Origin: Hydrogenobaculum sp. Y04AAS1
Lineage (GTDB): Bacteria; Aquificota; Aquificia; Aquificales; Aquificaceae
Direction of reading: 5' to 3'
NCBI RefSeq assembly: GCF_000020785.1
Contig: NC_011126.1
Span: forward strand, 496,001 to 560,000
Length of the DNA stretch: 64,000 nt
In this document: piece after piece, positions 20,714-27,537 of the stretch
Position numbering within the stretch: the stretch's first letter is position 1
Layout of the letters: the number at the start of each line of letters is the position of its first letter
The notes under the pieces: model-generated
Seen by the model: the letters and a program-made list of their open reading frames with translations, nothing else
What the model was told of the DNA's origin: nothing
Databases searched by the model: none
Translations under genes and position numbers: made by a program

Positions 20714-20744
20714 AAACATTACCTCCTTTTAGGTTAGTATTTAT

Positions 20745-20766
20745 TATATAAAAAATTTTTTATATA
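20745..20766. promoter_or_regulatory. 22-bp A/T palindrome in the divergent ars/fluoride promoter region
   Basis: A perfect 22-bp palindrome with an A6T6 core lies between the leftward ars run and the rightward fluoride riboswitch. The leftward -10 (TATAAT, 20748-20743) overlaps it. Its central 20 bp recur exactly at 27492-27511 by the other fluoride riboswitch. It could be an UP element, bent DNA or an operator. Confidence 0.5.
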
Positions 20767-20823
20767 TGCAATGAGTTTTCTCATAGTGATTTTATACCTT
20801 TTAATGTTAAGATATAACCACAA

Positions 20824-20877
20824 GGAGATGGCGTTCTCCTTTAAGCGCCTCCTTCAAAAGAGGCTGATAACGCCTAC
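20824..20877 (+). ncRNA. Fluoride riboswitch (crcB RNA motif), left copy
   Basis: It starts GGAGATGGCGTTCTCC and ends GGCTGATAACGCCTAC, matching the fluoride aptamer consensus (GG-GATGG, TTCnCC, CTGATnACnCCTAC). GGCGTT pairs with AACGCC, and CCTC pairs with GAGG across CAAAA. It precedes the crcB remnant by 27 nt. Its CCTCCT (about 20849) can pair with the AGGAGG ribosome-binding site at 20895-20900, which suggests translational control with fluoride turning expression on. Confidence 0.9.
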
Positions 20878-20904
20878 AAGCTCTAAGATATTTTAGGAGG
20901 TTTT

Positions 20905-21060
20905 ATGAACTATCCTGCATCGCTTGTAGGCGGCATTGAAGCTTTGATAAGACATATCTTCGTAGGTTTTGACCAAAAAGATGTGTCCAATTTTTTCTCT
21001 GGTACGTTTCCAATAAATATTTCTGAAGCTTTCGCAATTAATATATGGAGGGGTATATAA
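20905..21060 (+). pseudogene. Truncated crcB (fluC) copy, 51 codons
   Basis: It has an AGGAGG ribosome-binding site and ATG and encodes 51 residues starting MNYPASLVGGIEALIRHIF. It aligns with the intact CrcB at 26966-27334 along its whole length with one gap: MNY, LVGG, AL-R, QK-V-NF, GT--IN, AF-I are shared, by eye about half of 48 positions. It keeps the first two helices' register but gains acidic residues in them and stops where TM2 should end, so it cannot form a FluC channel. It carries the next gene's ribosome-binding site, so it may survive as a translated leader. Confidence 0.75.
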
Positions 21061-21062
21061 AG

Positions 21063-21794
21063 ATGGAAAAAGCTATTGAAAAATCTGTAGAATATGTGAT
21101 GTCTAAGCTGTGTAGCGATGGCGGGTATTCGTTTTATAGGCATATATATTTGGAAGAATCAAACATTTACGATACTTACTATGCCATAAGAACGCTCATA
21201 ATGTTTGGTAAAAGTATATCTGATAAAACTATCCGATATATCCTAAACTCATTTTTAGAGGCTGATACACTTGAAAAATATTATTATTCTATTAGATGTA
21301 TTGAGCTTTTAAAAGAAGATCCTAGAACATATAGAAAAGACGTTGAGCTACGCTTTGAGATATCCACTAAACAATTAGAAGATATAAACTTAGAACTTTT
21401 AAGGATACTGATGTTTAAAAGGATATCAGCATACTACGATATAGGATACTCTGAAGAAAAAACCAAGCATTTTATAAGCTCTATAGATAAATCAGATATA
21501 AAAACGGTTTCTTTAATATATGCAATAACAAGTAATTTGGAAAAAGATATAGACCCTTATTTTGACAAGGATTTAGGCATAGTGCCAATCCCTAACTTAA
21601 AATATACAAACATTTCAACTCTTTATGCAGGTTATTGGCTTTTAAAAGCTCTAAACAGAGAATTAAAGTACATTTCAAAAGCAAAAGAGTTTGTACTTAT
21701 GACCCAGGACAAATACGGTGCTTTTTCAGAAACCAAAGAAGCACTACCAGATTTAAGATCAAACTACTGCGGTATTTTCATATTGAACCTATGA
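21063..21794 (+). CDS. Alpha/alpha-toroid protein, prenyltransferase/terpene cyclase-like repeats
   Basis: A 243-aa protein with no signal peptide or membrane helix. SKLCSDGGYSFYRHIY with SNIYDTYYAIRTLIMFGK, and the C-terminal QDKYGAFSETKEA, resemble the DGGF/DTYYA repeat blocks of prenyltransferase beta and squalene cyclase toroids. No DCTA-type or DxDD catalytic motif is apparent, so an enzymatic role is not supported. ATG 21063 is chosen since GGAGGGG stands about 10 nt upstream; ATG 21045 precedes that site. It is downstream of a fluoride riboswitch. Confidence 0.65.
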   Translation: MEKAIEKSVEYVMSKLCSDGGYSFYRHIYLEESNIYDTYYAIRTLIMFGKSISDKTIRYILNSFLEADTLEKYYYSIRCIELLKEDPRTYRKDVELRFEISTKQLEDINLELLRILMFKRISAYYDIGYSEEKTKHFISSIDKSDIKTVSLIYAITSNLEKDIDPYFDKDLGIVPIPNLKYTNISTLYAGYWLLKALNRELKYISKAKEFVLMTQDKYGAFSETKEALPDLRSNYCGIFILNL

Positions 21795-21800
21795 ATAAAG
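21777..21800 (+). repeat. 24-bp direct repeat, left copy (flanks cfa)
   Basis: Starting TTCATATTGAACC, this 24-bp sequence is repeated exactly at 23123-23146. Here it contains the last codons and TGA stop of the toroid gene. Confidence 0.85.
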
Positions 21801-21920
21801 AAATATAGAAAGTAGAATGATGATAATAAATATTTTAGGCAAAAGACGAGTGCAAAAATTTTTGATAGGCTCAAGTGAGGCTTTATCTTGTGTAAGAAAA
21901 ATAAAATGAGGAGGTTATAA
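21795..21920 (+). other. Spacer before cfa with possible 30-aa ORF
   Basis: 126 bp between the toroid gene and cfa. It holds an open frame of 30 codons (21817-21909) lacking a good ribosome-binding site, which I do not regard as a gene. The GAGGAGG of cfa lies at its end. No terminator is visible. Confidence 0.4.
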
Positions 21921-23132
21921 ATGTTAGAATCTTTAATTCAGGAGGTTAGTAAAAAGTTAGAAGAAGGACTATGCGTCGAGCTTCCAGACGGTAGAGTTCT
22001 CGGTAGTGGTAATTGCAAAGTTAAAGTCAAAGATAAGAATGTTATATTAAACATACTAAAAGATCCTGAAATGGGCTTTGGAGAGGCATATATGAAAGGA
22101 GCCATAGAGATAGATGGAGATATTGAGAGATTTTTAGTGGCCTGCCTTAATTATCTTGAAGAAAATAAACAAGAGAAAAATTTTAGAAATAGTTTATTTA
22201 GAAATATTCTTAAATATACCGGACTTCTGAAGTTTACTGAGGAAAAGGAAGTAAGAAGTCATTATGATCTTGGCAACGACTTTTATAAGCTTTGGCTTGA
22301 TGATTCTATGACATATTCTTGTGCTTTTTTTACAGATGCACATCAGAGTTTAGAGATGGCGCAAAAGGAAAAAAGGAAGATTATATATGGGAAACTGCAA
22401 CTTACCGATGGGGATAAATTATTGGATATAGGCTGTGGTTGGGGTGCCATAATTCTTGAAGTATCAAAACTATACAACATAGAAGCTGTAGGTATAACGG
22501 TTTCAAAAAACCAATACGATTATGTAAAATCAAAGATAGAAAACAATGGACTAAGTAGTAGAACAAGAGTTTATCTAATGCACTATGAAGATCTACCAAG
22601 CCTTGGAGAGAAGTTTAACAAAATAGTTTCGGTAGGTATGTTTGAGCATGTAGGTAAAGGAAGACATAAAGACTTCTTTAAAATAGTACACAATACTATT
22701 GAAGAAAAAGGCCTTTTCCTCCTTCACACCATAGGAAAGGTTTTGCCAGAAAGCCAGAGCAAGTGGATAAGAAAGTACATATTTCCCGGAGGATATTTAC
22801 CTGCACTTACCGAAATAATCGAAGCAACCAAAGGGTCAGAATTCAACCTTATAGATATAGATGATTGGAGACTCCATTATTACAAGACGCTTCAAGAGTG
22901 GAGAAAAAGATTTTATAAGCATGCCGAAGAAGTTGTGAAAAAAAATGGCGAGGAGTTCTTCCGCATGTGGGACCTTTACTTAATAGGTTCTGCGGTATCG
23001 TTCCTGACCGGTTCCAATCATCTTTTTCAAATTCTTTTTTCTAAAGGTGTACTTAATGAATACCCTGTTATAAAAAGACAATTCCTTAGCCCTATAACTA
23101 TTAATAAATTAAGCTATGATTATTCATATTGA
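21921..23132 (+). CDS. cfa: Cyclopropane-fatty-acyl-phospholipid synthase
   Basis: A 403-aa SAM-dependent methyltransferase that adds a methylene bridge to unsaturated acyl chains of membrane lipids. HYDLGNDFYKLWLDDSMTYS, LLDIGCGWGAI (SAM site), GMFEHVG and FPGGYLP are family hallmarks, and the catalytic bicarbonate-site residues fall in these blocks. It has a strong GAGGAGG ribosome-binding site. It lies in a fluoride-riboswitch unit and is bracketed by 24-bp direct repeats. Confidence 0.95.
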   Translation: MLESLIQEVSKKLEEGLCVELPDGRVLGSGNCKVKVKDKNVILNILKDPEMGFGEAYMKGAIEIDGDIERFLVACLNYLEENKQEKNFRNSLFRNILKYTGLLKFTEEKEVRSHYDLGNDFYKLWLDDSMTYSCAFFTDAHQSLEMAQKEKRKIIYGKLQLTDGDKLLDIGCGWGAIILEVSKLYNIEAVGITVSKNQYDYVKSKIENNGLSSRTRVYLMHYEDLPSLGEKFNKIVSVGMFEHVGKGRHKDFFKIVHNTIEEKGLFLLHTIGKVLPESQSKWIRKYIFPGGYLPALTEIIEATKGSEFNLIDIDDWRLHYYKTLQEWRKRFYKHAEEVVKKNGEEFFRMWDLYLIGSAVSFLTGSNHLFQILFSKGVLNEYPVIKRQFLSPITINKLSYDYSY

Positions 23133-23146
23133 ACCTATGAATAAAG
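23123..23146 (+). repeat. 24-bp direct repeat, right copy (flanks cfa)
   Basis: An exact copy of 21777-21800, here read in another frame across the cfa stop. The following AAAGGAAT serves as the ribosome-binding site of the zinc-ribbon gene. Confidence 0.85.
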
Positions 23147-23156
23147 GAATAGAGCA

Positions 23157-23528
23157 ATGAAATGGTTTTGTCCTTATTGCTGGGCTGAACTAAAAGGGGA
23201 TGAAAGGATATGTCCCAATTGCGGGAAAGATATCTATCATTTTACATCTCTTGATTTTGATGAAAAACTCTTATACGGCCTTGATAACCCAATACCAGAG
23301 AATAGAATGCTTGTAATAGAAGTAATAGAAAAAAGAAAAAATCAAAAAGCTGTTCCTAAGCTTTGTAGTATGCTATCAGAAGAAAAAGACACCTACGAGC
23401 TAATGGCTATCGTCAAAGCCCTTTTGTCTATATCAACCAAAGAAGCTATAGATTGTCTTAAGCATCATAACTTTGATAAAAACGCCATACTAAGAAAGTT
23501 TTTAGAAGATCATCTTAATAAATACTAG
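23157..23528 (+). CDS. Zinc-ribbon plus HEAT-like helical protein
   Basis: A 123-aa protein. Residues 1-25 form a zinc ribbon (FCPYCWAEL and ICPNCGKDI). The rest reads as paired helices with a HEAT-like pattern (AVPKLCSMLSEEKDTYELMA). It probably acts as a small scaffold; no catalytic motif is seen. It is the last gene of the left fluoride unit and overlaps the convergent pyruvate kinase gene by 4 bp. Confidence 0.6.
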   Translation: MKWFCPYCWAELKGDERICPNCGKDIYHFTSLDFDEKLLYGLDNPIPENRMLVIEVIEKRKNQKAVPKLCSMLSEEKDTYELMAIVKALLSISTKEAIDCLKHHNFDKNAILRKFLEDHLNKY

Positions 23529-24980: not shown

Positions 24981-26369
24981 TTAAGCCAAGCTTTTGTAAG
25001 CGGGTGAATCTTCTCTTGTTTTTACTTGGGATTTGTATATAGAATAATCTCCAGATATAAGGTAAGCTACCGCCACCGCCAACATACAAGCTGGTAAAAG
25101 CTGATAACTACCCGTCATCTCTACCACCATAAGAGTCACTGCCACAGGAGCCTTACCAGCGGCGCCAAACAAAGCCAGCATACCAACTATCACAAAACCA
25201 CCTATATGACTTGTATTCACCAAAGACGGAAAAAGCTGATGGTAAACAATACCAAGCCCCGCTCCTAAAAATCCACCTATAAAAAGCCCCGGTGCAAACA
25301 CACCCCCAGAAGCTCCAGAACCTACCGTCAAAGATGTGGCTATTATTTTTATAAAAGCCAACAAAACAAAGAATATAAAAAGAGGAATACCGTATGTATC
25401 AAACATACTAAACTTTGTATCTATAGCACCCTGAAGCCAACCGTAACCAGTTCCTAAAACCTCCGGGAAAGCCATACCTATAATACCTGTTAAAAACATA
25501 CCTATGACAGGTTTTAAATATATGTTTGTTTTTAGGCTTTTAAAAAGATTATCTTTAAAATAATAAAATGTTTTTGCATATATGCGTCCAACGATTCCGC
25601 ACACGATACCTAAGATTATATAAAGGGGCAATCTTAGAGGGTTAAAATTTTGCAAATAATACCCAAACACAGGAACAAAACCAACGATACTTCCAAATAT
25701 AGAATATCCTACAGCAGAAGCCACAAGCCCAGGAAATATGTTATCGGCTTGTAAATCAGATTTGTAAAGGATTTCAGCTCCTAAGATAGCACCACCTATG
25801 GGAGCTTTAAAGATAGTGCCTATACCTGCTCCTATACCTAAGGCCAACATCCTTTCTCTATCTTTTTCGCTGAGCCCCAAAAGTCTTGCAAGCCAAGAGC
25901 CTATCCCTGCAGATATGAGCGCCGTAGGACCTTCTCTTCCAGCAGAACCACCAGATCCTATAGTAATGGCAGAAGCTATTGATTTTATAAAAATCACCCT
26001 ATCTCTTATAAAACCTTTTTTGTTGTGATAGGCATCTATAGCAGCATCTGTGCCATGACCTTCAGCCTCCGGAGCCCACTTAAACACTATGAATCCGGCT
26101 ATAAAACCACCAAAAGCTATTACAATGGGTAGTAGATAAACCAATCCCGGCTTAAAAATAAGGTTGTTTGGTTCCTCACCAGTGGGAGATGGTATATGAT
26201 AATGAAGGATTTTGTTAAAAAATATAAACTCGCAAAGCTTTAAACTATAATAAAAGAAAAGAGCACCAAGCCCAGATACAACACCGTTTATTAGCCCAAG
26301 TATAAACCACTTTAAAAAATAATCTTGCCTTGATATAAAACTACCTATCTTGTGGAATATATTATCCAT
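24981..26369 (-). CDS. ClC-family chloride channel/antiporter
   Basis: A 462-aa protein with about ten or more TM helices. Selectivity regions are GHGTDAAIDAYH in place of GSGIPE, GREGPTALIS with the gating Glu, and SGGVFAPGLFIGG. Known fluoride-selective CLC-F proteins lack that gating Glu and carry other signatures, so this is not a plain CLC-F. Co-occurrence with crcB under a fluoride riboswitch nevertheless suggests halide or proton handling in fluoride stress. It overlaps the DUF190 gene by 8 bp. Confidence 0.92.
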   Translation of the reverse strand: MDNIFHKIGSFISRQDYFLKWFILGLINGVVSGLGALFFYYSLKLCEFIFFNKILHYHIPSPTGEEPNNLIFKPGLVYLLPIVIAFGGFIAGFIVFKWAPEAEGHGTDAAIDAYHNKKGFIRDRVIFIKSIASAITIGSGGSAGREGPTALISAGIGSWLARLLGLSEKDRERMLALGIGAGIGTIFKAPIGGAILGAEILYKSDLQADNIFPGLVASAVGYSIFGSIVGFVPVFGYYLQNFNPLRLPLYIILGIVCGIVGRIYAKTFYYFKDNLFKSLKTNIYLKPVIGMFLTGIIGMAFPEVLGTGYGWLQGAIDTKFSMFDTYGIPLFIFFVLLAFIKIIATSLTVGSGASGGVFAPGLFIGGFLGAGLGIVYHQLFPSLVNTSHIGGFVIVGMLALFGAAGKAPVAVTLMVVEMTGSYQLLPACMLAVAVAYLISGDYSIYKSQVKTREDSPAYKSLA

Positions 26370-26661: not shown

Positions 26662-26969
26662 CTTACTATCTCCACCTCTTCAAGGGTTATAAGACCTGTG
26701 TTTAACTCTTGAAGTATATTTTTTAATACAGGTAATATTTTTTCTATATTCTCTTTTGTGTCTATGATTTCAACGGCTATTGGTTCATTTTTTTCAAATA
26801 AACCATGATGATGTATTTTACGGGATTTACCATAACCCTCTATAGCTCTGAACACCGTTGCACCGTGAATATTGTTTTCCATGCAAACATGCTCTATGCT
26901 ACTGCACAAAGATTTACCTTTATACTTTATCCCATGCTCTATAAGTATTTGAAGAAGATACCCTTTCAT
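26658..26969 (-). CDS. DUF190 protein, first copy
   Basis: A 103-aa protein, with NNIHGATVFRAIEGYGKSRK matching the DUF190 core more closely than its partner. A HHH run follows (KIHHHGLFE), a possible metal site. It overlaps crcB by 4 bp and the second copy by 4 bp. Confidence 0.87.
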   Translation of the reverse strand: MKGYLLQILIEHGIKYKGKSLCSSIEHVCMENNIHGATVFRAIEGYGKSRKIHHHGLFEKNEPIAVEIIDTKENIEKILPVLKNILQELNTGLITLEEVEIVR

Positions 26970-27334
26970 AACAAACCTCCCAAAAATCTACCAAGAGCCA
27001 CAAATAAAAACCCAATTACGTTTGTGCCCACTATATAATAAAAAGCTTTTAAATAATCTCCATTGTTTATAAGACCTATGCCTTCTAATGTAAATGTAGA
27101 AAATGTCGTATATCCACCAAGAAAGCCTGTTATAAGAAGAAGTCTTATATTTGGAGGAGCATCTATCACCTCAGTTAGGTATATGCTTAAAAACCCTATT
27201 AAAAACGCTCCCGTTGTATTTATCACCATTGTACCAAGAGGAAAGTTTGGCACAAACTTCTGAATAAAAATAGATACTAGATACCTCACCAAAGCACCTA
27301 CACCACCACCTACAAGAACCGCTAAGTAGTTCAC
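26966..27334 (-). CDS. crcB: Fluoride channel CrcB/Fluc
   Basis: A 122-aa four-TM protein forming dual-topology dimeric fluoride channels. GALVRYLV, GTMVINTTGAFLIG (pore Asn) and GFLGGYTTFSTFTLE (the Phe/Thr track) are diagnostic. The start is GTG with GAGGAGG upstream, 28 nt after a fluoride riboswitch. A truncated relative lies at 20905. Confidence 0.96.
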   Translation of the reverse strand: MNYLAVLVGGGVGALVRYLVSIFIQKFVPNFPLGTMVINTTGAFLIGFLSIYLTEVIDAPPNIRLLLITGFLGGYTTFSTFTLEGIGLINNGDYLKAFYYIVGTNVIGFLFVALGRFLGGLL

Positions 27335-27362
27335 ATAGCCTCCTCAAAAATATATAGAGCAG

Positions 27363-27433
27363 GTAGGCGTTATTAGCCTTATATGTGAGGCGGTTTTGAT
27401 GCTTTTATGAGCATCAAGGAGAACGCCATCTCC
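27363..27433 (-). ncRNA. Fluoride riboswitch (crcB RNA motif), right copy
   Basis: Read on the minus strand it starts GGAGATGGCGTTCTCC, identical over these 16 nt to the left copy, and ends GGCTAATAACGCCTAC. It has an extra hairpin (GATGCTC to GCATC) between the conserved blocks. GCCTC inside it can pair with the GAGGC of the crcB ribosome-binding site, which suggests control of translation start. Confidence 0.93.
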
Positions 27434-27491
27434 TTAAACCTGAGGTTATTATAACAAAACATCTAAATGCTTTCTATGATAGGTATCATTA

Positions 27492-27511
27492 TATATAAAA
27501 AATTTTTTATA
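27492..27511. promoter_or_regulatory. 20-bp A/T palindrome shared with 20745-20764
   Basis: An A6T6-centred sequence identical over 20 bp to the one by the left riboswitch. It lies between the leftward crcB unit and the rightward murC promoter, with its edge about 58 nt from the aptamer, the same distance as at the left copy. Confidence 0.5.
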
Positions 27512-27537
27512 CAAAATTGTTTATTTTGTGTTGGTGC

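Follow-up and report, generated by a model that had tools for sequence, protein, structure and literature searches.

A second fluoride riboswitch of Hydrogenobaculum sp. Y04AAS1 is followed by a 51-codon open reading frame (ORF1) that descends from the first half of the CrcB/Fluc channel gene, crcB. It is moderately probable that this old paralogue with its truncated crcB heads a fluoride-response operon, and that it works as a translational switch through the two RNA ends of the gene remnant. In outline, an old local paralogue of a unit comprising an ars-type operator, a promoter, a fluoride riboswitch and crcB would have lost the rest of crcB, and would now head an operon encoding an alpha-alpha toroid protein, a probably inserted cyclopropane synthase and a zinc-ribbon/HEAT (Zn-HEAT) protein. 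The features of the analysed DNA, a stretch of 64,000 nucleotides at chromosome positions 496001-560000 called the window below, are as follows.

20744-20767, no strand: AT-rich palindrome TTATATAAAAAATTTTTTATATAT with an exact 18-nt core, candidate ArsR operator and upstream edge of the left unit
20815-20883, + strand: left fluoride riboswitch aptamer (RF01734; covariance model 56.3 bits, E 6.4e-13)
20871-20881, + strand: putative switching strand 1, the aptamer 3' strand CGCCTACAAGC, perfect complement of 20922-20932
20895-20900, + strand: ORF1 ribosome-binding site AGGAGG, recognised by sequence and paired in the ligand-free fold
20905-21060, + strand: leader ORF1, 51-codon truncated crcB, 24/46 identity to CrcB
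20922-20932, + strand: putative switching strand 2, ORF1 codons GCTTGTAGGCG encoding LVGG, 11-nt perfect complement of 20871-20881
21047-21053, + strand: ribosome-binding site GGAGGGG of the next gene, recognised by sequence within ORF1 and identical in the sister species
21063-21794, + strand: prenyltransferase-like alpha-alpha toroid protein (PF00432 E 4.1e-6; dN/dS 0.07)
21921-23132, + strand: cyclopropane-fatty-acid synthase-like gene (PF02353 E 4.1e-97; dN/dS 0.30)
23157-23528, + strand: Zn-HEAT protein (HEAT_2 E 1.3e-7; dN/dS 0.18)
26966-27334, - strand: intact crcB (Fluc; PF02537 E 1.2e-29)
27357-27442, - strand: right fluoride riboswitch aptamer (RF01734; 52.4 bits), upstream of intact crcB
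27491-27514, no strand: right copy of the palindrome, with no adjacent ars gene

The two aptamers, 6.5 kb from each other and in opposite orientations, both score above the RF01734 gathering score of 34; no further match to this family was found in the whole 1,559,514-base genome. The left match, at 56.3 bits, bears out the second riboswitch proposed in an earlier sequence-only reading, which had put the identity between the two aptamer starts at 16 nt; the identical stretch is actually 20 nt (AAGGAGATGGCGTTCTCCTT). Behind the right aptamer lie crcB, two DUF190 genes, a ClC gene and pyruvate kinase. The best structure matches of this ClC (24981-26369) are chloride-type ClcA proteins (E 9e-33), with no entry labelled as a fluoride CLC among the matches listed, and a related ClC gene, decayed by many stops, is present in another genome (G004, L082 6998-8308).

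The core of the left aptamer is largely kept. It deviates by an A for G in GAUAAC, common elsewhere among the sampled riboswitch loci, and by a G at 20845 in place of the C found in both the consensus and the sister species. A scan of a viral collection for the base at 20845 gave one match confirmable as a riboswitch and was uninformative on that base. With this G the left aptamer could be impaired, which would favour a rather improbable account in which the riboswitch is dead in this strain and the toroid operon is expressed from a conventional promoter, which ArsR might control at the palindrome shared with ars genes. Against that account, the rest of the aptamer is intact, and the sister-species aptamer, with the consensus C, scores 58 bits; the downstream genes, treated below, also speak against it.

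ORF1 aligns with the first 46 residues of the intact CrcB with 24 identities (pair E 2e-10), a single one-residue gap, and neither frameshifts nor stops. Its BLOSUM62 score of 89, compared with a mean of 25.4 (sd 4.6) and a maximum of 48 among 5000 shuffled sequences, upholds the earlier claim of homology to the CrcB start, and ORF1 ranks as the second-best CrcB match among all the window's frames of 40 aa or more. Against the other Aquificales CrcBs compared, the score is at most 53. A Pfam search with ORF1 returned no family at E<=1, while the intact protein is identified as CRCB; at 51 aa, ORF1 falls short of the profile match of about 100 residues and the four transmembrane (TM) segments that define PF02537. 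It retains two of the four membrane segments, lacking TM3 and TM4, and has gained acidic residues in TM1-TM2. These had been counted as two, and are at least three or four, through the changes of LVGGGVGALVRY to LVGG-IEALIRH, FIQKF to FDQKD and NTTGAF to NISEAF. ORF1 is therefore not a Fluc channel, in agreement with the earlier reading, and a functional second CrcB is ruled out since half of the protein is missing.

At the DNA level, the left-right alignment runs from the palindrome at about 20744 through the aptamer and the ribosome-binding site into about 130 nt of coding sequence; the aptamer is shared as previously described, but the homologous unit begins further upstream than had been placed. 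With a non-synonymous distance of 0.52 and saturation at synonymous sites between ORF1 and crcB, the two paralogues are old; the left crcB probably remained full-length for some of their divergence. A six-frame search of the whole genome for the remainder of the left crcB found only the two known places. A truncated-crcB leader is not a common arrangement, being found at none of 122 sampled riboswitch sites.

The left locus is also present in the sister species (G003, locus L012) at about 96% identity. Its ORF1 has 22 codons (L012 3725-3793; MNYPAALVGDIEAFTINIWRGI) and keeps the stop codon used in the window, having undergone an in-frame deletion of 87 nt between 9-nt repeats, TGAAGCTTT, that lie at 20937 and 21024 in the window. 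In this way 29 of the 51 codons are lost, and three of the five differences in the shared codons change amino acids. The ORF1 start, frame, stop and both ribosome-binding sites are kept in both species. In the window the leader has a ribosome-binding site of its own; it is open and, as had been noted, holds that of the next gene, and its stop (21058-21060) precedes the toroid start at 21063, a layout identical in the sister species. What the deletion spared there is the beginning of the frame, through codons 6-10, and its final codons, in which the next ribosome-binding site lies. Since ORF1 is shortened in frame to 22 codons, the CrcB-like peptide is dispensable; the idea that the remnant is conserved in relatives as such a peptide does not hold, and it is more likely kept for its RNA.

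Codons 6-10 include the putative second switching strand. Pairing over 11 nucleotides or more was reached by 0.04% of downstream sequences simulated with a Markov model (P 4e-4) and by 0.065% of sequences recoding the same peptide synonymously (P 6.5e-4); these values of P ~5e-4 are post hoc, since the fold had drawn attention to the complement. In the sister species both strands have the same sequence as in the window, despite changed ORF nucleotides flanking the helix and the 87-nt deletion after it. Because the helix shares nucleotides with the conserved 3' strand of the aptamer, the two structures are mutually exclusive. The free fold forms the helix and pairs the ORF1 ribosome-binding site (MFE -44.7, versus -29.3 with the aptamer imposed). 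When the aptamer is imposed the helix disappears and the ribosome-binding site is still paired (unpaired 0.06 to 0.11 in the left copy), with no change in its pairing in the sister species; other pairings replace the helix, so that the site is not freed in the model. Its release with fluoride, which we infer, is thus a step that the model folds do not reproduce. Two further points weigh against the switching-strand reading: the leader is carried by two genomes, too few for covariation, and the right copy has only five paired nucleotides by Watson-Crick rules, or eight with G-U. Judging by its complementarity, the crcB remnant probably provides the switching strand of the left riboswitch.

Two wider propositions about such leaders were rejected. 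The leader fold is not stronger than random (z -0.99 and -0.34), and complementarity between the aptamer strand and early codons is not a general feature, with at least 8 nt at 7 of 73 loci, roughly the chance level by a hand estimate.

It is unlikely that ORF1 is the debris of a decaying pseudogene behind a working left riboswitch, its 11-nt complement arising by chance. The loss of 29 codons in the sister species, the amino-acid changes among the shared codons, the lack of a CRCB profile match and the after-the-fact discovery of the complement all fit decay. Yet neither species has lost the start, the frame, the stop or either ribosome-binding site despite synonymous saturation against CrcB, the deletion is an exact multiple of three, and the retained part coincides exactly with the complementary strand and the ribosome-binding site of the next gene.

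The preferred mechanism comprises a predicted fluoride response, translational switching and coupling, with the left switch acting on translation. Without fluoride, the aptamer 3' strand would pair over 11 nt with remnant codons 6-10, closing a hairpin around the leader ribosome-binding site and start. With fluoride, the aptamer pseudoknot would hold the 3' strand and the leader would be translated. The leader stop and the toroid start are 2 nt apart, and the toroid ribosome-binding site is in the last leader codons, so leader translation would be coupled to the toroid gene; the remnant would be kept for these two RNA ends and not for its peptide. It is possible, more tentatively, that this is an expression platform built from a dead gene, in which the opening codons of truncated crcB act as anti-aptamer strand and the closing ones supply the next ribosome-binding site. 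With similar reserve, the remnant may have become a regulatory leader that is translated ahead of a second fluoride-response operon, with ArsR and fluoride perhaps exerting dual control.

As in other systems built on RF01734, the locus combines an aptamer, an opposite-strand paralogue before crcB and predicted control of fluoride-response operons; it differs in having a truncated crcB as leader ORF, with codons complementary to the aptamer. An overlapping terminator has been described for many members of the family, whereas no terminator follows the left aptamer on the + strand, and the left copy is probably a translational platform instead. ORF1 also resembles leader-peptide and translational-coupling systems in ending beside the next start and carrying its ribosome-binding site. 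Unlike those leaders, it is a gene remnant whose sequence is apparently part of the switch, and no stalling motif was seen in it.

The toroid, cyclopropane synthase and Zn-HEAT genes are under purifying selection. Direct repeats of 35 nt (91%) flank the cyclopropane synthase gene (21777-21811 and 23123-23157), so this gene was probably inserted between the toroid and Zn-HEAT genes; its frame ends seven codons later in the window than in the sister species. It is not a general riboswitch target, being found at 0 of 122 sampled sites. The structure model of the toroid protein is of moderate confidence (pLDDT 66); its best fold matches are prenyltransferase beta subunits, with none at E<=0.001.

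Relatives of the operon genes were sought among 120 loci, carrying 122 fluoride-riboswitch pattern sites, from a pattern scan of a species-level genome collection. Downstream of the riboswitch on the same strand, toroid relatives occur at 3 of the 122 sites (L141, L164, L196) and Zn-HEAT relatives at 2 (L173, L196), counts that apply to riboswitch-bearing loci, by which the sample was selected, and not to a genome-wide background. All four loci are labelled Deltaproteobacteria or Thermodesulfobacteriota, and most of these relatives sit in same-strand runs with enolase. The gene orders are as follows.

L141 and L164: riboswitch, dynamin-like GTPase, enolase, toroid, HIT-like protein
L196: riboswitch, GTPase, enolase, Zn-HEAT, three further genes, small gene, toroid
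L173: riboswitch, DUF6062 protein, Zn-HEAT

The genes of L196 also include a STAND-like ATPase and DUF6062. None of the 79 other Aquificales genomes searched has the toroid, whose known relatives come from the riboswitch side, as a peptide-pattern search of genome contigs confirmed none. The enolase/GTPase cluster (L141, L164, L196) has the toroid in common with the window, and in L196 also Zn-HEAT, but its switch looks terminator-type, its first gene is the GTPase, and it contains neither a crcB remnant nor a cyclopropane synthase. The operon thus probably reached the Hydrogenobaculum lineage as a fluoride-response module. Its left switch was probably supplied locally, because the switches of the relatives look terminator-type and the left copy resembles the right one. 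The suggestion that the riboswitch was re-used to place other genes under fluoride control, which implies unrelated genes, is not supported as worded, toroid and Zn-HEAT relatives already standing behind fluoride riboswitches in other phyla. This recurrence, together with promoter-like matches within the operon that do not exceed chance, argues against a vestigial switch. Among the papers searched, none covers fluoride riboswitches together with Hydrogenobaculum or dynamin, and the sole one that also mentions cyclopropane seemed off topic.

The palindrome is 24 nt long and lies 48 nt upstream of each fluoride aptamer. This rare palindrome (TATAAAAAATTTTTTATA), counted by its 18-nt core, has three sites in the genome, including genome position 400008; they accompany the ars operon beside the left aptamer, a second paralogue of the first gene of that operon, and the right aptamer. 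The palindrome also precedes ars genes in genome G002 and an ArsB-like permease in a relative, G001. It is a probable ArsR operator of the neighbouring divergent ars operon, and its presence at both fluoride switches raises possible ArsR control of crcB.

This bears on the history of the two units. That they are paralogous and inverted, as originally proposed, stands; copying from right to left is unsupported, and the direction may be reversed, because the palindrome is native to the ars promoter. The right unit may thus be the derived one. An origin at the left, with the right unit a copy or the product of inversion between inverted copies, has a little under an even chance. The ancestral order would then have been an ars operon divergent from operator, riboswitch, crcB, DUF190, DUF190, ClC and murC. 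The right palindrome without an ars gene fits this order, as does G001, where ClC and murC directly follow each other in the same direction, without a palindrome or riboswitch between them; their relative orientation is the opposite of that in the window. The junction expected from such an order falls at contig ends in G001, one within the small ars gene and one at the start of ClC; it is unassembled, and no crcB was found in that genome. A left origin concerns history and not function, and is compatible with the preferred mechanism.

The sister species has a third riboswitch, heading a group 4 hydrogenase-like operon between two direct repeats (L012 10088-16915). The flanking riboswitch copies do not differ over the 95 nt that span aptamer and ribosome-binding site; at this site the window genome carries one riboswitch and lacks the operon. 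As this third copy shows, the fluoride riboswitch is mobile in the Hydrogenobaculum lineage. Formate hydrogenlyase-type and Na+/H+ antiporter genes are known fluoride riboswitch targets (PMC2864571, PMC11139923), and hydrogenase-type and Na+/H+ antiporter genes follow riboswitches in G003 and G010. Another Aquificales fluoride riboswitch (L013 5264-6915) precedes a Na+/H+ antiporter-like and UspA-like gene pair, and its aptamer 3' strand runs into a CTCCTTTAAAGGAG hairpin over the ribosome-binding site.

The locus suggests a path by which riboswitch regulons may grow: a switch is copied with the head of a gene, the gene dies, and the piece that forms the switch is kept. The toroid and Zn-HEAT families would be uncharacterised candidate members of the fluoride response, common to Aquificales and Deltaproteobacteria. 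Hydrogenobaculum is an acidophile; fluoride would then enter as HF, and a membrane-lipid enzyme in the operon would be a testable addition to this response.
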